DNA of 64,000 nt, taken from Lysobacterales bacterium 66-474 (GTDB lineage: Bacteria > Pseudomonadota > Gammaproteobacteria > Xanthomonadales > Rhodanobacteraceae). Under the pieces are notes generated by a model. The model was not told the DNA's origin and did no database searches. It worked only from the letters and a program-made list of their open reading frames with translations. A program made the translations under genes and the position numbers. This document shows positions 1-60,496 of this stretch, one piece after another. The stretch covers positions 558,001 through 622,000 of the forward strand of contig MKWP01000015.1 of NCBI GenBank assembly GCA_001899805.1. Reading direction: 5' to 3'. The number at the start of each line of letters is the position of its first letter. Position 1 is the first letter of the stretch.

Positions 1-332
1 AATCGCCCGCCGCGCTCGCGCCGGCGCCCAACGCGGTGGTGTACTTGCCGGTGGCACTCGAACCGTTGCCCAGCGCCGTCCCGTACTTGCCGCTGGCATT
101 CGCGTTGCGGCCGATCGCCGTCGCGTACTTGCCAGTCGCGCTCGCGTTCTGGCCGATCGCGATATTGCCGCCGTAGTAACTGCCTGCGTAGGCACCCGCC
201 CCCATCGCGATGTTGTTGCCGCCGTAACCGCCGGTCGCCGCGCCGTTGCCCATCGCAATGTCGTTGCTGCCCGACGCCAGACTGTTGCTGCCGATCGCCG
301 CGCTGTGGTCGCCCAACGCCTGCGCGTTGTAA
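1..332 (-). repeat. Adhesin head module A, copy 2
   Basis: This stretch matches 1750-2081 at a constant offset of 1749 bp (583 codons), with about a dozen mismatches over 332 bp, most of them synonymous. Both copies encode the same run of head repeats, including a Gly-Tyr-Gly-Gly-Asn segment. The copy continues to the window edge and may be longer. Confidence 0.85.
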
Positions 333-3043
333 CCGAAGGCACTCGACTGGTCGCCTTGCGCAACGCTGTAACGGCCCACTGCCGTACTGTTGTCGCCCGT
401 CGCATTGGCTGTATCGCCAACCGCCGTCGAACCGTAGCCCGCTGCCACCGCGAATGGCCCCACGGCTGTGCCATAGGTGTTCGCCACCGTCTGGTTGCCG
501 ATCGCGATGCCGCCATCGCCCAGCGCTGCTGCGTTCGAGCCCATTGCAATGCTGGCGTAACCCGATGCGTACGCGAAATACCCCGTCGCAATGCTGTTGG
601 TTGCAGGTGCCGCCGTGTACGCACGGAAGCCTTCCGCAATGGAATGATCGCCCAATGCCACCGCATCAGCGCCGATCGCCGTGGCGATGTAACCGCTGGC
701 ATAGGCGCCCACGCCCATCGCCGTGGTGCCGCCATTCACCGCGTGCGCGCCAGCGCCGAAGGCTGCCGAGAGGAACCCATCGGCGTGGCTGCCCGCGCCA
801 ATCGCGGTACCCTCATACCCGGTGGCGTAGGCCCACGAGCCGACCGCCGTCGCGTATTTGCCGCTGGCATACACGTGGCTGCCGACGGCAGTGCTGTAAT
901 TACCCTTGGCGATGGCCAAGTCGCCGAGCGCGGTGCTGAAGTATCCGCTCGACTCGGATCGCCAGCCGACCGCCGTGCTGTACTTGCCGGAAGCCTGGGT
1001 TCCCTGCCCGAGCGCGGTGCTGTATTTGCCGCTCGCGCTGGCATTGTTGCCGAAGGCCGACGCGCCTTCATTGGTCGCCATCGCATTGGAACCCACCGCC
1101 GTGGCGGGAGAGGTGCCGTAATAGCTGGTGCCGTTCGCCACGGCGTTCTGGCCCATCGCCAAATCGCCGCTGCCGTACGCATGTGCATTGCTGCCGATCG
1201 CGGTGCTGTTGTCGCCCAACGCCTGCGCGTTGTAACCGAAGGCACTCGACTGGTCGCCTTGCGCAACGCTGAAACGACCGGCCGCCGCACTGTTGTCGCC
1301 GGTCGCATTCGCGGTGTCGCCGATCGCGGTCGAACCGTATCCCGCCGCCACCGCGAACGGACCCACGGCCGTCGCATACGTGCCAGCGACGCTGGTGTTG
1401 CCGATCGCGATCCCGCTGTCGCCCAGCGCCGCCGCATTGCCGCCCATCGCGATGCTGTTGTAGCCACCTGCGTACGACTGGCTGCCGATTGCCACGGCCT
1501 GGTAAGCCGCCTCGCCCGTCGTCGCCCTGAAACCCACCGCGGTCGACAACGCGCCCTGCGCATACGCGTTGGTGCCCAGCGCCGTCGATATCGATCCAGT
1601 CGCCTTGGCCACCAATCCAAACGCCGCACTGCCGTACGCGGCGTACGCACCCGTGCCTACTGCCGTCGCGTAATCGCCCGCCGTCGCAAACGCGCCCACT
1701 GTCGTCGCCTGTGCGCCCGCCGTCGAGAACGCCCCCACCGCGGTACCGTAATCGCCCGCCGCGCTCGCGCCGGCGCCCAACGCGGTGGTGTACTTGCCGG
1801 TCGCATTCGAACCGTTGCCCAGCGCCGTCCCGTACTTGCCGCTGGCATTCGCGTTGCGGCCGATCGCCGTCGCGTACTTGCCGGTCGCGCTCGCGTTCTG
1901 GCCGATCGCGATGTTGCCGCCGTAGTAACTGCCCGCGTAGGCGCCCGCCCCCATCGCGATGTTGTTGCCGCCGTAGCCGCCGGTCGCCGCGCCATTGCCC
2001 ATCGCAATGTCGTTGCTGCCCGACGCCACGCTGTTGCTGCCGATCGCCGCGCTTTGGTCGCCCAGCGCCTGCGCGTTGTACCCGTTCGCGGTGCTGTCAT
2101 CACCGGACGCCGTCGCCAGCGGCCCCGAGGCCGTCGCGTGCGCACCACTGGCCACGGCATCGTCCGAACCGTCGGCCGGACCGTTGGCCTTGAAATAATG
2201 CGACGTCGCCGCGGCTTCGCCGTTGTTGGTGGCCGCGTTCAACTGCGCGAGGTTCACCGCGTCGGTGTCCTGCGTGCCCGCAGCCACGTTGGTGATCTGG
2301 CGCTCCGCCCCCGGCGCGCCGACCGACACGCTGTTCGCACGATCGGCGATCGACCCCGCGCCCAACGCCACGCTGTTGGCATAACCGTCGGTCGATGCGC
2401 CATGCCCCAGCGCGACGCTGTCCGTGGCATCGGCGATCGAATTGGTGCCGAGCGCCACCGTGTAGCCGCCGCTTGCCGTGGCGGCATAACCCAGCGCCGA
2501 CGACTTGTAACCCGACGCCCAGGCTCCCCGACCCACGGCAGTGCTCGCCGTTCCCAGCGCATGGGCGTTGTTGCCGACCGCGGTGCTGAATGCGCCCGTC
2601 GCGACCGCGACGTAGCCCGCGGCGACGGCTTTCTCGCCCTTTGCATAAGAACCGTTGCCGACGGCGACACTGCGAAGCCCTTTCGCCGTGGCGTTGTTGC
2701 CGAACGCCGACGCGTAGGCGCCGGAGGCGACGGCTTTCACCCCGACCGCCGTTGCGTGATCGCCGCTGGCCTTGGCGCCCTTGCCGCACGCGAGCGACTG
2801 ATTGCCCGTCGCGCTGGCGCCACTGCAATTGGTTTGTCCTTGCGCGGCCGCTGCCGTCAGCCAAGGCGCGGCACCCAGGACCAGCGTTGCGGCAAGCGCG
2901 AGTGCCGCGCGCCGAAGGCCCGCACCGGAGCCTTTTGCTTCTCCCGACGAACCGCTACCGCCCTTCACCGTTGCCAGTTCGGATGCCACCACGATCTGGC
3001 GAAGGGACTTGTTCCAAACCAGGCTGTAGATATTCTTGTTCAT
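1..3043 (-). CDS. Trimeric autotransporter adhesin, N-terminal part (cut by left edge)
   Basis: Surface adhesin of the YadA/Hia type (type Vc secretion). The frame is open through the left edge, so the stalk end and the C-terminal beta-barrel anchor lie outside. From the ATG at 3043 one reads an extended signal peptide region (residues 1 to about 27, beginning MNKNIYSLVWNKSLRQ), a Gly/Ser linker, a hydrophobic core at about 46-60 and probable cleavage near 68. Head repeats of about 14 residues (Hep_Hag pattern AxGxxSxAxG) follow. A neck motif (ITNVAAGTQDTDAVNLAQL) sits at about 248-270, and a second long head then runs to the edge. Alternation of Gly, Ala, Ser and Asn explains the dense long shadow frames on the other strand. 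The start is fixed by the extended signal peptide rather than by a strong ribosome site. The product should act on the outer membrane in attachment or autoaggregation; its ligand cannot be told. Confidence 0.9.
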   Translation of the reverse strand, partial: MNKNIYSLVWNKSLRQIVVASELATVKGGSGSSGEAKGSGAGLRRAALALAATLVLGAAPWLTAAAAQGQTNCSGASATGNQSLACGKGAKASGDHATAVGVKAVASGAYASAFGNNATAKGLRSVAVGNGSYAKGEKAVAAGYVAVATGAFSTAVGNNAHALGTASTAVGRGAWASGYKSSALGYAATASGGYTVALGTNSIADATDSVALGHGASTDGYANSVALGAGSIADRANSVSVGAPGAERQITNVAAGTQDTDAVNLAQLNAATNNGEAAATSHYFKANGPADGSDDAVASGAHATASGPLATASGDDSTANGYNAQALGDQSAAIGSNSVASGSNDIAMGNGAATGGYGGNNIAMGAGAYAGSYYGGNIAIGQNASATGKYATAIGRNANASGKYGTALGNGSNATGKYTTALGAGASAAGDYGTAVGAFSTAGAQATTVGAFATAGDYATAVGTGAYAAYGSAAFGLVAKATGSISTALGTNAYAQGALSTAVGFRATTGEAAYQAVAIGSQSYAGGYNSIAMGGNAAALGDSGIAIGNTSVAGTYATAVGPFAVAAGYGSTAIGDTANATGDNSAAAGRFSVAQGDQSSAFGYNAQALGDNSTAIGSNAHAYGSGDLAMGQNAVANGTSYYGTSPATAVGSNAMATNEGASAFGNNASASGKYSTALGQGTQASGKYSTAVGWRSESSGYFSTALGDLAIAKGNYSTAVGSHVYASGKYATAVGSWAYATGYEGTAIGAGSHADGFLSAAFGAGAHAVNGGTTAMGVGAYASGYIATAIGADAVALGDHSIAEGFRAYTAAPATNSIATGYFAYASGYASIAMGSNAAALGDGGIAIGNQTVANTYGTAVGPFAVAAGYGSTAVGDTANATGDNSTAVGRYSVAQGDQSSAFGYNAQALGDHSAAIGSNSLASGSNDIAMGNGAATGGYGGNNIAMGAGAYAGSYYGGNIAIGQNASATGKYATAIGRNANASGKYGTALGNGSSATGKYTTALGAGASAAGD
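293..600 (-). repeat. Adhesin head module B, copy 2
   Basis: Matches roughly 1196-1503 at an offset of 903 bp (301 codons). It is nearly identical over about 60 bp around 310-370 and more diverged after that. It abuts module A copy 2, whereas copy 1 is followed by a different head segment, so blocks have been shuffled as well as copied. Ends are approximate. Confidence 0.7.
1196..1503 (-). repeat. Adhesin head module B, copy 1
   Basis: Partner of 293-600. Both encode the GYNAQALGD head repeat and the segments on either side of it. Ends are approximate. Confidence 0.7.
1750..2081 (-). repeat. Adhesin head module A, copy 1
   Basis: In-frame partner of the module at 1-332. It lies at about residues 321-431 of the adhesin, shortly after the neck motif. 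The near identity suggests a recent internal duplication or gene conversion of the head. Confidence 0.85.
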
Positions 3044-29203: not shown

Positions 29204-29989
29204 ATGTTCACTTCACTGTGGGTCGCCAAGACCGGACTCGATGCGCAGCAGACGCGCATGGACGTCATCTCCAACAACCTCGCGAACGTCAACACCACCG
29301 CGTTCAAGAGCTCGCGCGCGTCGTTCCAGGATCTGGTCTACCAGAACGTCAAGCAGCCCGGTGGCCAGACCACCGAGCAGACGCAGTCGCCCTCGGGCCT
29401 GATGCTGGGCACCGGCGTGCGCGTGGTCGGCACCGAAAAACTTTTCACGCAGGGCAACCTCAGCCAGACCGGCAATGCACTCGACGTCGCGATCGAAGGC
29501 CGTGGCTTCCTGCAGGTCGCGATGCCGGACGGTTCCACCGCCTACACCCGCGACGGCTCGCTGCACTTGAGCCGCGACGGCCAACTGGTCACGGCCAGCG
29601 GTTATCCGCTCGATCCGTCCATCAACCTGCCGCCGAACGCACAGAGCGTGACCATTGGCAAGGACGGCACGGTCAGCGTCACCGTGCCCGGCCAGTCCGC
29701 GCCGACCCAGGTCGGCACCCTGCAGATGGCCGACTTCGTCAATCCCGCCGGCCTGCAACCGACCGGCGAAAACCTGTACGTCGAGACCGCCTCCAGCGGC
29801 GCGGCGCAGATCGGCCAGCCCGGCCTGAACGGCATGGGCACGCTGGAACAGGGCTCGCTGGAAACCTCCAACGTCAACGTGGTGGAAGCGCTGGTCAACA
29901 TGATCGAAACCCAGCGCGCCTATGAAATGAACTCCAAGGCCATCTCGGCCACCGACGGCATGCTGCAAGACCTCACCAGCAAGATGTGA
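29204..29989 (+). CDS. flgG: Flagellar distal rod protein FlgG
   Basis: Distal rod subunit of 261 residues with strongly conserved ends ([20 protein letters not shown] and [20 protein letters not shown]). AGGAG precedes the ATG at 29204, and the in-frame start 12 codons upstream is less likely. The stop is 4 nt before the earliest possible start of flgH. Confidence 0.95.
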
Positions 29990-29993
29990 TGAC

Positions 29994-30815
29994 GTGAACG
30001 CCCCTCCCTTCAGCATGCTCCCGGCCTCCGCGAAATCGGTCACGGCATCACCGCGACAGAGCCTGTATGTCCGCGAAGGACGCCAAGTACACGAAGAAAA
30101 GCAGAACCATTTTCTGCCCGGCTTCCATTTGCGTTCTTTGCGTCCTTGGCGTCCTTTGCGGTCAATGATCTTTTGCTCTGTCGCCGCGTTGGCAGGCTGC
30201 GCGACTTCCGCGCCGCGCATCGATCCGGCGTGGTCGCCGACCATGCCGATCTCGCAGGAAGCGCCACCGCCCGCCGACGGTTCGATCTACCACGATGCGC
30301 AGTCGATGGAATTGTTTTCCGATCCGCGCGCGCATCGCGTCGGCGACATCCTCACCATCGTGCTGGCCGAGAACACCCAGGCCAGCAAGAAGGCCAGCAC
30401 CTCCACGTCCAAGAAGGACGACACCAGCCTCGGCGGCGCCACGCTGTGGGGCAAGACCTTCCCGTTGAACGGCGGCAAGATCGCGAGCCTGTCCGGCGAA
30501 CGCGGCTTCGACGGTTCCGGCAGCAGCAGCCAGAGCAACCAGCTGACCGGGCAGATCACGGTGACGGTGGCGCAGCGCCTGTCCAACGGCAACCTGGTGT
30601 TGCGCGGCGAGAAGTGGCTGACCATCAACCAGGGCCGCGAACTGGTGCGCATCGCCGGCATCGCGCGCCCGCAGGACATCGGCCCCGACAACACCATCCT
30701 GTCCACGCGCATCGCCAACGCGCAGATCACCTACACCGGCAGCGGCACGCTGGCCGACGCGAACACGCAGGGCTGGCTGTCGCGCTTCTTCAATTCCAAG
30801 TGGATGCCATTCTGA
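29994..30815 (+). CDS. flgH: Flagellar L-ring lipoprotein FlgH, start inside or before a repeat element
   Basis: Outer-membrane L-ring subunit. The body from about residue 90 is a standard FlgH ([49 protein letters not shown]), and a lipobox ALAGC is clear at about 64-68 counted from the GTG at 29994. That start would leave 67 residues before the lipid-bearing Cys, too many for a signal peptide. The ATG at 30165 would leave only 11 with no positive charge. In-frame TTG codons between 30128 and 30160 would give a good Arg-rich signal peptide. The whole stretch is encoded by the palindromic repeat at 30053-30184. None of these starts has a clear ribosome site. The coordinates give the maximal frame, and the end overlaps flgI. 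Confidence 0.88.
30053..30184. repeat. Palindromic repeat element inserted at the 5' end of flgH
   Basis: About 132 bp bounded by 10-bp inverted ends (GCGACAGAGC / GCTCTGTCGC). Inside, larger imperfect arms face each other: GTCCGCGAAGGACGCCAAG on the left and, read in reverse complement from the right, ACCGCAAAGGACGCCAAGG. The same CCGCAAAGGAC core occurs in the element between flhB and flhA. It has no coding capacity for a transposase and looks like a small non-autonomous palindromic element. Confidence 0.75.
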
Positions 30816-31993
30816 TGAGCACGCAGATTCACGCCCGCCACATCGAAACCTGCGAACAGGCCCGGCGCACCGCGATGGCGCGAGTGTGCGCGCGCATCGC
30901 CGTCGCGTTGCTGGTCGCAACCCTGATCGCGATGGCGATGCCCGCGCACGCCGAGCGCCTCGGCGACCTCGCGCAGGTGGGCGGTGTGCGCAGCAACCAG
31001 TTGATCGGCTACGGGCTGGTGGTCGGCCTGGAAGGCAGCGGCGACCAGACCAGCCAGGCGCCCTTCACCACGCAAAGCATCGAGAACATGCTGCAACAGT
31101 TCGGCGTGACCGTGCCCGCGAACGTGCGCCCGCAGTTGCGCAATGCCGCCGCGGTGGTGGTCACCGCCTCGTTGCCCGCGTTCGCGAAACCCGGCCAGGC
31201 CATCGACGTCACCGTGGCCTCGATCGGCAACGCCAAGAGCCTGCGCGGCGGCGAATTGCTGATGACGCCGCTGCGCGGCGCCGACGGCAACACCTACGCG
31301 ATCGCGCAAGGCAGCGTGCTGGTCGGCGGCGTCAATGCCCAGGGCGCCAGCGGTTCCAGCGTGCAGGTGAACATTTCCTCCACCGGACGCATTCCCAACG
31401 GCGCCAGCGTGGAACGCACGGTGCCGAACGGTTTCGCCGACAGCGGCAGCCTCACCCTCAATCTCAACACACCGGATTTCACCACCGCGAACAGGGTCGC
31501 CAAGGCCATCAACGAACGCTTCGGCGACGGCACCGCGCAGGCCAACGACGCGGTCTCGGTGCAGGTGCGCGCGCCACTGGACCCGACCCAGCGGGTGTCG
31601 TGGATCGCCGACATCCAGAACCTCGACGTCACGCCGGGCGATGCGCCCGCACGCGTGATCGTGAATTCGCGCACCGGCACGGTGGTGATCGGTTCCGACG
31701 TCAAGGTCAGCGCCGCCGCGGTCGCGCACGGCTCGATCGAAGTCAGCATCGGCGAACAGCCGTTGGTCAGCCAGCCCGCGCCGTTCAGCAAGGGCCAGAC
31801 CGTGGTGGTGCCGAACAGCAGCGTCAAGATTTCCGAACACGGCGGGCACATGTTCAAGTTCGGCCCCGGCGTCAGCCTCGACCAGATCGTGCACGCGGTG
31901 AACCAGGTCGGCGCGTCGCCCAACGACCTCATTTCCATCCTGCAGGCGTTGAAGCAATCCGGCGCGTTGCACGCCGAGCTCGTGGTGATTTGA
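30815..31993 (+). CDS. flgI: Flagellar P-ring protein FlgI
   Basis: Periplasmic P-ring subunit of about 392 residues. A signal peptide lies within the first 46 residues (core [20 protein letters not shown]). The mature protein begins [20 protein letters not shown], a classic FlgI start, and runs to [20 protein letters not shown]. The ATG at 30815 overlaps the flgH stop; an ATG at 30875 would give a signal peptide of more usual length and is a real alternative. Its chaperone FlgA is at 22122. Confidence 0.94.
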
Positions 31994-41334: not shown

Positions 41335-42741
41335 ATGCATGTGTTCCCGGTCTTGATCGTCGACTCCAACGCGACGCGCGCCTCCAGCATCTCCTCCTTC
41401 GTTGATGAAATCGGCTACCAGCCGCTGACCCACGCTCCCTCGAACGACGATTCCGACCCGTTGAACTGCTGCGCCGTGTACGTCGGCCCCGACGAACCGG
41501 CATCGGTGGTGAAAAGCCACCTCGCCATGCTCGGCGAATCACACCGCGATGCGCCACTGCTGGTGTCGGAGGATTCCCCGCATCTCGCGGCGTTGCGCCA
41601 ACTCGCTGCGAACGTGTACCCGGTCGCGCCGCCGCACCTCGAATCGCTCGGCGCGATGCTGCGCCTGCACGCCCCGCGCACCGTCGGCAGCCGCACCACC
41701 GACGACCGCCGCTTCGTCGGCCGGTCGGAACCGGTGCGCCTGCTGCACAGCCTGATCCGGCGCGTGTCGCCGTTCGATTCCAGCGTGCTGGTGCTGGGCG
41801 AATCGGGCACCGGCAAGGAACTGGTCGCGCGCTTCATCCACGAATGCTCGCCGCGCCGCGACAAGCCCTTCATCGCGATCAATTGCGGCGCGATCCCGCC
41901 CGACCTGCTGGAAAGCGAATTGTTCGGCCACGAAAAGGGCGCGTTCACCGGCGCCATCAGCACCCGCAAGGGTCGTTTCGAAATGGCCGAAGGCGGCACC
42001 CTGCTGCTCGACGAAATCGGCGACATGAGCCTGCCGATGCAGGTGAAGCTGCTGCGCGTGCTGCAGGAACGCTGCTTCGAGCGCGTCGGCGGCAACAAGT
42101 CGATCCAGTGCGACGTGCGCATCATCGCCGCCACCCACAGGAACCTCGCGCAGGCCATCTTCGACGGCAAGTTCCGCGAGGACCTGTTCTACCGGCTCAA
42201 CGTGTTCCCGGTGGAGTTGCCGCCATTGCGCGCACGCACCGAGGACCTGCTGGTGCTGATCGAGGAGTTCAACCAGCGCCTGGTGCGCCGCGGCCTCGCG
42301 CCGGCCCGCCTCACCGCCGACGCGCTCAACGCGTTGGCCGGCTACGACTGGCCCGGCAACGTGCGCGAGCTCGGCAACCTCATCGAGCGCCTCGCGATCC
42401 TGTACCCGGCAACGCCGGTGCGCGTTGCGGAACTGCCGCAGCAATACCGCAAGCAGCGCAAGTTCGACGAATCCGCCCCGCCCTCGTCGTTGCAGTGCAT
42501 GCTCGACGGCAGCGGCGACGCCATCGATCTGGATGCCGGCGACGACCTCGACCAACTGCCCGAAGGCGGGCTCAACCTGCGCGACCATCTCGCCGACATC
42601 GAAGTCGGCCTGATCCGGCAGGCGCTGACCGCCTCCGATGGCGTGGTCGCGCACGCGGCCAAACTGCTCGGCATGCGCCGCACGACCCTGGTCGAAAAGC
42701 TGCGCAAGTACCAGCTGCAGGCCAACGTCACCGTGGAGTGA
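41335..42741 (+). CDS. fleQ: Sigma-54-dependent flagellar master regulator FleQ
   Basis: Bacterial enhancer-binding protein of 468 residues, expected at the top of the flagellar hierarchy and often a c-di-GMP receptor. The N-terminal receiver-like FleQ domain (about 1-115) lacks a normal phospho-acceptor Asp. The AAA+ domain (about 125-360) has Walker A GESGTGKE, the sigma-54-contact loop GAFTGA and LLLDEIGDM. The C-terminal Fis-type helix-turn-helix (about 420-465) has [18 protein letters not shown]. It is distinguished from FleR (44311) by the missing phosphorylation site. Its own promoter is unclear. Confidence 0.93.
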
Positions 42742-43102: not shown

Positions 43103-44310
43103 ATGAACGCCGTCCCGCTTCTCCGCCCCGCCGATCCGCAGCGCTTGCAGGCGCTGGAGCTCGCCTTCGCGCAGTTCAACGAAACCTCGCGGCAACTGGA
43201 ATCGTCCTGGTCCGCGTTGCAGGAACGCGTGGCCGAATTGACCCGCGAGCGCGATGCCGCGCAGCAGGCACGCCTCACCGAACTGGCCGAACGCGAACGC
43301 GTCGCGGATCGCCTGCAGGCCTTGCTGGGTGCGTTGCCGGGTGCCGCGTTGATGATCGACGCCGACGGCTGCGTGCGCGAGTGCAACGCCGGCGCCATCG
43401 AACTTCTGGGACAACCGTTGCATGGCCAAGCCTGGCGCGAGGTCGCTGCGCGCGCGTTGCCCGCGCGCAGCGACAGCGACGGCACGCCTTGCCTCGTCGA
43501 CGGCCGTCGCCTCGGGGTGTCGCGCCGCGCCACCGCCGATGGCGGCTGCGTGCTGTTGCTGACCGACGAAAGCGAGGCGCACGCGCGCCGCAGCGGCATC
43601 GAGCGCCAGCGCCAACTCTCGGACGGCGACCAGCAACGCGCCCACCTGGCGCACCAGTTGCGCACGCCACTGGCCACCGCGGTGCTGTATCTGTCGCGGA
43701 TCGCCGATGGCGGCGTCGACCCGCCGGGCGCGCAACGCATGGCAGGCAAGGCGCTGGCACGACTGGTCGACCTGCAGCAACTGATCGACCAGACCCTGGC
43801 GTGGGCGCGCGGCGATGCCGACACCACCGCGACCTTGCGCGTTTCCGACCTGCTGCGCGATGCCGCCGGCAGCACCGACGCAACCGAGCGCATCGACATC
43901 CACGATGCCGGTGACGGCGCCTGCGTGCGCGGGCAGCGCAACCTGCTGGCCAGCGCGCTGGTGAATCTCATCGACAATGCGCTGGCGTTTTCTGCACGCG
44001 TGCGGCTTGCAGCCACGCGCCACGACGACGGCGTGACATTGACCGTGCAGGACGATGGCCCCGGCATCGACGCGGCCACCGCCACGCGCATCTTCGAACC
44101 GTTTTTCAGCACCCGCGCCGGCGGCACCGGGCTCGGCCTTGCCATGGCCCGCAGCGTGGCGCGCGCGCACGGCGGCGAACTCTCGCTCGTGCCCAGCCGA
44201 TGCGGCGCCCGTTTCGAGCTGCGCCTGCCACTGGCCGGCGACACACGCATCCTGCCCAGCGACCTGCGCGCGCAGCGCGGCGACAACCCGCGACATCACG
44301 GAGCCCGGAC

Positions 44311-44314
<4 letters not shown>
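43103..44314 (+). CDS. fleS: Flagellar two-component sensor kinase FleS (FlrB)
   Basis: Cytoplasmic histidine kinase of 403 residues with no membrane segment. It has an N-terminal coiled coil (about 10-75), a PAS-like region (about 78-165) and an H-box with the phospho-His in HLAHQLRTPLATAVLYLS (about 190). The ATP-binding domain has NLIDNALAFS, DDGPGIDAATATRIFEPFF and GGTGLGLAMAR. It is expected to sense the state of basal-body assembly and phosphorylate FleR. Its stop overlaps the fleR start (ATGA). Confidence 0.92.
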
Positions 44315-45657
<1,343 letters not shown>

Positions 45658-58167: not shown

Positions 58168-58383
58168 CGTCATTCCCGCGCAGGCGGGAATCCAGTGCTT
58201 TTGATCAAGGCATGGCTGCAAAAGCAAAAACGGTCCGCAAAAACCGCGAAGAACGCGAAGAGAAAAATCTTCTCTTTGCGCACTTTGTGTCCTTTGCGGA
58301 CAAAGGGGTTCTGCTCTGCATCGCATCTCTTCGGCGGCATCCGGAAGTAAAGGCACTGGATTCCCGCCTACGCGGGAATGACG
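58168..58383. repeat. Repeat element with 35-bp inverted ends between flhB and flhA
   Basis: About 216 bp. The left end (58168-58202) and right end (58349-58383) are inverted copies with about two differences, each containing ATTCCC-N8-GGGAAT. Inside is another imperfect inverted repeat (58233-58301) with a CCGCAAAGGAC core like that of the flgH element. It is of the kind whose spurious translations (VIPAQAGIQ, FPRRRESS) recur in Xanthomonas-like and Neisseria genomes. No transposase is encoded. Confidence 0.85.
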
Positions 58384-58402
58384 AAAAATTGGTGACGCGG
58401 CA

Positions 58403-60496
58403 ATGACCACGCAGACTCTCATGCAGCAGTTTGGCCGCATCGGCCGCCGCGGAATCGGCGCGCCGATCGTGATGCTGATCCTGCTGGCGATGGTGATGCT
58501 GCCGTTGCCGCCGTTCATGCTGGACATGCTGTTCAGCTTCAACATCGCGCTGTCGCTGATGATCGTGCTGGCGGTGGTGTACGTGATGCGGCCGCTGGAA
58601 TTCGCATCGTTCCCCACCGTGATCCTCGGCGCGACATTGTTGCGGCTTGCGTTGAACATCGCCTCCACCCGCGTGGTGCTGCTGCACGGCCATGCCGGCC
58701 CCGGCGCCGCGGGCAAGGTGATCGAGGCCTTCGGCGAGTTCGTGATCGGCGGCAACTTCACCGTGGGCCTGGTGGTATTCACGATCCTCACCATCATCAA
58801 CTTCGTGGTGGTGACCAAGGGCGCCACCCGCGTGTCGGAAGTCACCGCACGCTTCACCCTGGATTCGATGCCCGGCAAGCAGATGGCGATCGACGCCGAC
58901 TTGAACGCCGGATTGCTGACGCAGGACCAGGCGCGGGAACGCCGCCGGGAAGTGCGCGAGGAATCGGACTTCTACGGCTCGATGGACGGCGCCTCGAAGT
59001 TCGTGCGCGGCGACGCCGTCGCCGGCATCCTGATCCTGGTCGTGAACATCGTCGGCGGTTTTACAGTCGGCGTGCTGCAGCATGGGCTTTCCGCCAGCGA
59101 AGCCGCGCATACCTACACCCTGCTGACCATCGGCGACGGCCTGGTCGCGCAGATCCCGGCGTTGCTGTTGTCGATCGCGACCGCGGTGATCGTGACCCGC
59201 GTGTCGGGTTCGCAGGACATGGGCAAGCAGGTCATCAAGCAGGTATTCGGCCAGCCGCGCACGCTCGCCGTCACCGCCGTGGTGCTGGGCGTGATGGGCG
59301 TGATCCCCGGCATGCCGAACGTTGCCTTCCTGTTGCTTGCCGGTTTGTGCGGGGGCGCTGCATTCCTGCTCGACCGTCGCCGCCGCGACGCGGAGAAAGC
59401 CGCCGCGCAAGCCACCGCGCTGGCCAGCACCGAACCCGCGCCCGCGGGCGAACGCGTGGAACTTTCGTGGGACGACGTCACCGCGGTCGACACCATCGGC
59501 CTCGAGGTTGGTTACCGCCTGATCCCGCTGGTCGACCGCAACCAGGGCGGCGAACTGCTGGGCCGCATCAAGTCGGTGCGCCGCAAGCTGTCCCAGGACC
59601 TCGGCTTCCTCGTCCCGCCGGTGCACATCCGCGACAACCTCGACCTCGGTCCCAACCACTACCGCATCAGCCTGCTGGGCGTGCCGGTCGGCGAAGCGGA
59701 AATCCACCACGAGCGCCTGCTCGCGATCAATCCCGGACGCGTGCACGGCCGCCTCGACGGCATCGCCGCGCGCGATCCGGCGTTCGGCCTGGAAGCGGTG
59801 TGGATCGAACCCGGCCTGCGCGAACACGCGCAGACCCTCGACTACACCGTGGTCGATGCGGCGACCGTGATCGCCACGCACCTGTCGCAGATCCTGCAGA
59901 CGCACGCGCACGAATTGCTCGGCCACCAGGAAGTGCAGCAACTGCTCGACCGGCTTTCCGCGGAAGCGCCGAAGCTGGTCGAAGACCTGGTGCCCAAGCG
60001 CCTGCCGCTCGGCGTGGTGGTCAAGGTGTTGCAGAACCTGCTGGCCGAGCGCGTGCCGATCCGCAACATGCGCGGCATCGTCGAATCCTTGGCGGAGCAC
60101 GCATCGCAGAGTCAGGATTCCGGCGCGCTCACGGCCGCGGTGCGGGTTGCGCTCGGTCGCCAGATCGCGCAGGAAATCAGCGGTTTGGGCAGCGAAATTC
60201 CGGTGATCACGCTCGCGCCCGAGTTGGAACAGATCTTGCTCCAGTCGCTGCAAGGCAGTGGTCCGGCCGGCACCGCGGTGGAACCGGGATTGGCCGAACG
60301 ACTGCAGCAGAACGTCGCCGATGCGACGCAGCGCCAGGAGATGGCGGGCGAGCCGGCGGTCCTGCTGGTGGCACCGCAGTTGCGGCAATGGCTGGCGCGC
60401 TTCACGCGCCACGCCGCACCGGGACTGCACGTGCTGGCCTACAACGAAATACCGGACAACCGCCGCGTGCGATTGGTTTCGGCACTGGGACGATGA
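58403..60496 (+). CDS. flhA: Flagellar export gate protein FlhA
   Basis: Export-gate channel of 697 residues. About eight membrane segments (about 20-310) include ASFPTVILGATLLRLALNIA, STRVVLLHG and GDAVAGILILVVNIVGG. A large cytoplasmic domain (about 360-690) binds chaperones and substrates. The ATG at 58403 is 20 bp after the repeat element, which must be transcribed through unless flhA has its own promoter; none is obvious. Confidence 0.95.
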   Translation: MTTQTLMQQFGRIGRRGIGAPIVMLILLAMVMLPLPPFMLDMLFSFNIALSLMIVLAVVYVMRPLEFASFPTVILGATLLRLALNIASTRVVLLHGHAGPGAAGKVIEAFGEFVIGGNFTVGLVVFTILTIINFVVVTKGATRVSEVTARFTLDSMPGKQMAIDADLNAGLLTQDQARERRREVREESDFYGSMDGASKFVRGDAVAGILILVVNIVGGFTVGVLQHGLSASEAAHTYTLLTIGDGLVAQIPALLLSIATAVIVTRVSGSQDMGKQVIKQVFGQPRTLAVTAVVLGVMGVIPGMPNVAFLLLAGLCGGAAFLLDRRRRDAEKAAAQATALASTEPAPAGERVELSWDDVTAVDTIGLEVGYRLIPLVDRNQGGELLGRIKSVRRKLSQDLGFLVPPVHIRDNLDLGPNHYRISLLGVPVGEAEIHHERLLAINPGRVHGRLDGIAARDPAFGLEAVWIEPGLREHAQTLDYTVVDAATVIATHLSQILQTHAHELLGHQEVQQLLDRLSAEAPKLVEDLVPKRLPLGVVVKVLQNLLAERVPIRNMRGIVESLAEHASQSQDSGALTAAVRVALGRQIAQEISGLGSEIPVITLAPELEQILLQSLQGSGPAGTAVEPGLAERLQQNVADATQRQEMAGEPAVLLVAPQLRQWLARFTRHAAPGLHVLAYNEIPDNRRVRLVSALGR

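Follow-up and report, generated by a model that had tools for sequence, protein, structure and literature searches.

A dispersed palindromic repeat in the signal-peptide region of flgH in Lysobacterales bacterium 66-474

The flgH locus and its palindromic repeat

The window analysed here, a stretch of 64,000 nucleotides from Lysobacterales bacterium 66-474 (G000:C15:558001-622000, where G000 is the window's own genome), contains a flagellar cluster. The open frames recognised in this cluster include flgD, flgE, flgF, flgG, flgH, flgJ, flgK, flgL, the flagellin gene, fliD, fliE, fliF, fliG and fliI, with the matches of flgD and fliD lying below the curated cut-offs of their models. Two sigma-54 type regulators are also found in the cluster (41335-42741 and 44200-45657), with DNA stretches about 72-79% alike that lie 2988-2991 bp apart. 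Direct repeats of 21/42 nt form long arrays at the beginning of the window (1-2750), where two 300-bp blocks are 97% alike; our guess is that the arrays belong to a large repetitive surface protein.

The features of the flgG-flgI region described below are on the forward strand. The gene flgG occupies 29204-29989 (NCBIfam TIGR02488, 387.7 bits against a cut-off of 252.75), the conserved part of flgH occupies 30186-30815 (Pfam PF02107, E 3.8e-61), and flgI occupies 30815-31993 (Pfam PF02119, E 6.9e-144), overlapping the flgH stop by one base. Both the position between flgG and flgI and the score against the NCBIfam FlgH model NF001304 (273.3 bits, cut-off 247) identify the gene as flgH. Its frame is open from a GTG at 29994-29996, across a palindromic repeat, into the Pfam FlgH domain, and the alignment to NF001304 begins at residue 58 of this frame, which is the M of the peptide MIFCS.

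The initial annotation had placed a palindromic repeat at 30053-30184, at the start of flgH. Folding of this segment as RNA gives a minimum free energy of -67.7 kcal/mol against a mean of -35.1 for shuffled sequences (z -9.5), and folding as DNA gives a z of -8.1; in each case, none of 200 shuffles was as good. Since the repeat also has multiple copies in the genome, it is real and dispersed. The right edge needs correction: the last five bases, GTCGC (30180-30184), are most likely native flgH, because the relative G010 has GTCGCC at this point. We therefore take the inserted repeat as 30053-30179, with a core at about 30070-30162 and outer tails that are less certain.

A similarity search places the repeat at six positions in its own genome, including itself. 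When the listed half-sites are matched up and inspected, the count is at least 12 two-armed and at least two one-armed copies, although two of the counted copies, located at contig ends, are near-identical in sequence. Only the paired arrangement is informative: the loose half-site pattern alone showed no enrichment in the window's own genome over a reversed control (146+141 against 142+145). The common core of the copies is GTCCGCGAAG.ACGC...GCGT.CTT.GCGGAC, and several copies have a tail resembling ATCTTTTGCTCT of the window. Within the genus, the core is present in six of 16 genomes (E 0.001), with eleven matches in G012 and none in G010. A search of 29800-30400 against Rfam gave five hits to microRNA hairpin models from three families; none came near its gathering score, and we read them as generic hairpin matches.

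Several other arrangements were observed among the copies. A second copy in the window (about 58170-58410) sits between the arms of another palindrome (GGCGGGAATCCAGTGC ... GCACTGGATTCCCGCC), forming a repeat nested in a repeat, and the palindrome that flgH of Rhodanobacter thiooxydans LCS2 contains is a similar one, ATTCCCGCG. At G000:C14:35549-36008, two one-armed copies about 450 bp apart face each other; the left one reaches into the 3' end of a reading frame resembling a glutamine amidotransferase gene.

Relatives with and without an insertion

Only three of the 16 genus genomes carry flgH, namely those of the window, G010 and G012, and flagella thus seem patchy in the genus. In its conserved part, flgH of the window is 90% identical to that of G010 and 78% identical to that of G012. 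Both relatives have an ordinary N-terminus, in which the flgG stop is followed by 8 or 5 nt, an ATG, and then MKTRPVLATTLLVAAAALAGC or MKLHLPAICLCLLGAATLAGC; the insert is absent from flgH of both, the two genus relatives with the gene, and the signal peptide is short and ordinary. The window sequence rejoins that of G010 at GTCGCC (30180). Consequently, the segment 30180-30200, encoding VAALAG and the lipid-bearing Cys (codon 30198-30200), matches G010 in both point and reading and is native, whereas MIFCS and everything before it are not. The initial annotation had suggested that the natural 5' end of flgH was replaced by the element, which would not hold if relatives without it had the same N-terminus; neither G010 nor G012 does, and the comparison bears the suggestion out. 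The repeat does encode an Arg-rich stretch and MIFCS, in frame with the native VAALAGC.

The segment ahead of the repeat was also considered. A native 5' end hidden in 29994-30052 was rejected, since 619 of 1000 shuffles aligned as well to the flgH start of G010 and 260 of 1000 aligned as well to that of G012. Instead, 30013-30054 resembles part of an aldo/keto reductase gene from the genus genome G008 (84% over 43 columns of G008:C239 with a one-base gap; E 1.4e-5 for that genome, one of 16). The best E value for this segment among 233 genomes is 1.2e-5, and the same point in this kind of gene is matched in seven of 19 loci, the other 12 being other genes. The window's own genome has an aldo/keto reductase gene assigned to Pfam PF00248. 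None of 1000 shuffles reaches the score of the match, but the two genes tested had been chosen as best hits, and the E values given above are the fairer measure. The stretch is likely to be filler taken up with the insertion. Judged from these alignments, about 186 nt, mostly foreign, now stand in place of the n-region and the beginning of the h-region of the original signal peptide, and that an insertion into the flgH signal region took place is near certain.

To see this junction in a wider context, we determined how far the Cys codon lies from the flgG stop in 237 loci (the window, 80 named loci, 25 others and a further 131), all of which were retained and which comprise 186 distinct sequences. 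The 131 loci were from among the matches listed, in 182 of 398 genomes, leaving out those already included. Of the distinct junctions, 181 have no more than 104 nt and one has 109 nt; the remaining four are long, namely the window (208 nt), R. thiooxydans LCS2 (227 nt), Mizugakiibacter sediminis (274 nt) and Rhodanobacter sp. A1T4 (208 nt). Palindromes lie inside three of these four and are of three different kinds: those of LCS2 and M. sediminis are unlike that of the window, and each recurs across the genome that carries it (22 matches in LCS2 and 28 in M. sediminis, counting both strands and the palindrome itself). Comparison with R. lindaniclasticus plainly shows that LCS2 has kept the native start and first codons. 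The long in-frame N-terminus of Rhodanobacter sp. A1T4 (L112, about 2720-2990) was considered as a further repeat and rejected, because it matches only itself in its own genome; it is a long N-terminus of non-repeat sequence.

Read from the start next to flgG, each of the four long inserts stays open and in frame with flgH. By frame alone, the chance of this is 1 in 81 for the four, or 1 in 27 when the window is left out; taking the lack of stops into account lowers it further, though the argument was formed after the cases had been seen. The agreement points to selection having acted on translation from the native start across the insert.

Translation start, export signal and competing explanations

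The in-frame starts available to flgH are GTG 29994, ATG 30015, and four within the repeat (30129-30167), namely TTG 30129, TTG 30138, TTG 30156 and ATG 30165. GTG 29994 lies 4 nt past the flgG stop, where the median for relatives is 8 nt. Opening the mRNA is predicted to cost 7.2 kcal/mol at this GTG and 11.1 at ATG 30015. For the starts within the repeat, the costs are 19.7, 33.0, 26.8 and 32.5 kcal/mol in the order given above, compared with 4.9-19.5 at the flgH starts of 59 relatives (those of the 80 that met a set rule for a start). Pairing with the ribosome is weak throughout, at -0.7 for GTG 29994 and -1.5 to -1.7 in the repeat, against a median of -2.2 for relatives, and taken alone it slightly favours the starts in the repeat.

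As for the fused peptide, WRPLR is followed by 12 uncharged residues and then the Cys. In a survey of 156 distinct relatives, which omits rows without a recognised Cys, 12-22 uncharged residues precede the Cys; twelve is the minimum and is found in 36 of them. The best 10-residue hydropathy of the window (2.43) lies within the range of the relatives (1.90-3.46), 55 of which are lower. By pattern, the peptide thus has a basic residue, an uncharged core and a lipobox Cys, and the proposal that the repeat supplies part of the signal peptide agrees with this fit to the family. Such a fit is not rare: the same test is passed by three of 63 reading frames taken where repeat copies end and by 198 of 5000 pieces drawn at random from the window, or roughly one in twenty; in this test, a fixed tail length fails the window's own repeat end, while the true junction passes. 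What is unusual is the distance from the favoured start. With translation from GTG 29994 the Cys is residue 69; the 68 residues before it are far beyond what is ordinary, and the PROSITE lipoprotein rule, with the Cys at 15-35, would reject such a precursor.

The explanation that we prefer is as follows. The dispersed palindrome, apparently together with about 42-45 bp of unrelated filler ahead of it, entered the gene in frame, past the start codon but before the hydrophobic core, at the expense of the original n-region and the first part of the h-region. Translation would most likely begin at GTG 29994, in the native position beside the flgG stop and coupled to flgG, and the ribosome would open the hairpin and read through it. 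In the resulting precursor, 68 residues would stand before the lipid-bearing Cys, 11 residues encoded by the repeat plus the native VAALAGC would serve as the export signal, and everything before the Cys would be cleaved off, leaving mature FlgH unchanged. The start used, export, cleavage and the function of FlgH are all deduced here from sequence. The empty site in relatives, the dispersed nature of the repeat, the pattern fit, the NF001304 alignment from residue 58, the accessible GTG, the frame kept in four of four long inserts and the constraint on mature flgH argue for this model; the 68-residue leader, the minimal 12 uncharged residues, the commonness of the pattern fit, the non-motile LCS2 and the excess of changes in flgG (see below) argue against it. 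On balance, we give read-through from the native GTG with a working FlgH about an even chance.

The initial annotation had translation taken over from inside or before the repeat. The second possibility corresponds to the accessible GTG, and the first, in which one of TTG 30156, TTG 30138, TTG 30129 or ATG 30165 would yield a short signal peptide, is the less likely because these starts are buried in the hairpin. It is still a rival, since the three TTG starts are the only ones that satisfy the PROSITE rule, placing the Cys at residue 15-24 with an Arg near the start; the slightly better ribosome pairing of the starts in the repeat points the same way, as does LCS2, in which the repeat end likewise supplies an ATG close to the hydrophobic core. 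However, the four starts belong to the 3' arm of the hairpin, with opening costs above those of all 59 relatives (TTG 30129 barely so); the frame from the native start need not be kept if translation begins internally, yet it is kept in all four long inserts; and M. sediminis offers in-frame starts only at 88, 57, 51 and 10 codons ahead of the Cys. According to these predictions, read-through from GTG 29994 is likelier than a start supplied by the repeat, which we consider rather improbable. An assembly error at the repeat is more improbable by far. Some copies of the repeat do lie at contig ends (C4:76, C15:192 and C5:16243), but the gene order and both flanks are as in the relatives, the junction is deep within a contig of 1.09 Mb, and the next best place in the genome matches at only 83% over 46 bp.

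A more serious competitor, though in our judgement still unlikely, is that FlgH is weakened or lost through the insertion, with expression or export blocked by the hairpin and the over-long N-terminus; the window would then hold an allele at an early stage of motility loss, before any decay. The scarcity of flgH in the genus would fit this explanation. So would the tabulation of R. thiooxydans LCS2, with its similar insertion, as non-motile and of R. denitrificans as motile in a table of PMC11596576; R. humi is also entered there as non-motile. In a passage of PMC12146267, another R. thiooxydans strain, FW510-R12, is reported to have raised flagellar gene expression in co-culture. For M. sediminis, no statement on motility was found among the literature entries listed or by a word search of PMC4599104. 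With G012 as the outgroup, flgG has 19 amino-acid changes on the branch of the window and four on that of G010, an excess that could reflect relaxed selection on the operon, while flgF, flgH and flgI are balanced (seven and eight changes, respectively, for flgH). Against impairment, mature flgH is constrained like its neighbours (dN/dS against G010 of 0.152, compared with 0.257 for flgF, 0.122 for flgG and 0.144 for flgI), flgH has no excess of changes in the window or in LCS2 (one singleton change among six species compared), the frame is intact in all four long inserts, and the genes of the flagellar cluster read as open frames. Mature FlgH is free of decay by these measures. The allele may be harmless or crippling, and a working FlgH from it is plausible.

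Known in-frame palindromes and implications

Palindromes within genes and in frame are already known. Rickettsia palindromic elements (RPEs) are described in passages of PMC3733652 and PMC10969869 as palindromes some 150 bp long that sit in frame inside open reading frames. The palindrome of the window is also in frame within a gene, but it occurs in other bacteria and lies in a part of the protein that is expected to be cut off; the likeness considered here is one of arrangement. REP elements, in the account given in part of PMC3733652, are dispersed palindromes of 20-40 bp tagged by GTAG/CGTC, some of them in reading frames; the window's repeat is likewise dispersed and within a reading frame, but at about 93-127 bp (with a paired core of about 93 bp) it is too long for this class. 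Its size and terminal inverted repeats do agree with MITEs, for which passages of the same two articles (PMC3733652 and PMC10969869) give 70-300 bp, inverted repeats and fusions with host genes. No target-site duplication was recognised by eye at the window's repeat, whose exact ends and original site are approximate. Among the open-licence papers listed in our searches, none was seen to deal with this repeat or to describe repeats of this kind within FlgH or the signal peptide of a lipoprotein.

Viewed together with the long junctions of other species, the locus leads us to a tentative generalisation, which we hold with less confidence than read-through itself: the stretch between start and core of FlgH may be a recurrent, tolerated landing site in Rhodanobacteraceae. 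Unrelated palindromes would have entered it in frame on three or more occasions and become working parts of the signal peptide, with the hairpin opened by flgG-coupled translation and the foreign part discarded by signal cleavage.

If the allele works, it shows how selfish palindromes can enter a conserved gene cheaply when they land in a segment that is later removed, and how repeats can provide the material for a rebuilt export signal; the locus then also offers a natural test of the maximal length of a lipoprotein signal peptide. If it fails, the insertion would be a simple first step of flagellum loss in a lineage in which flgH is already patchy.
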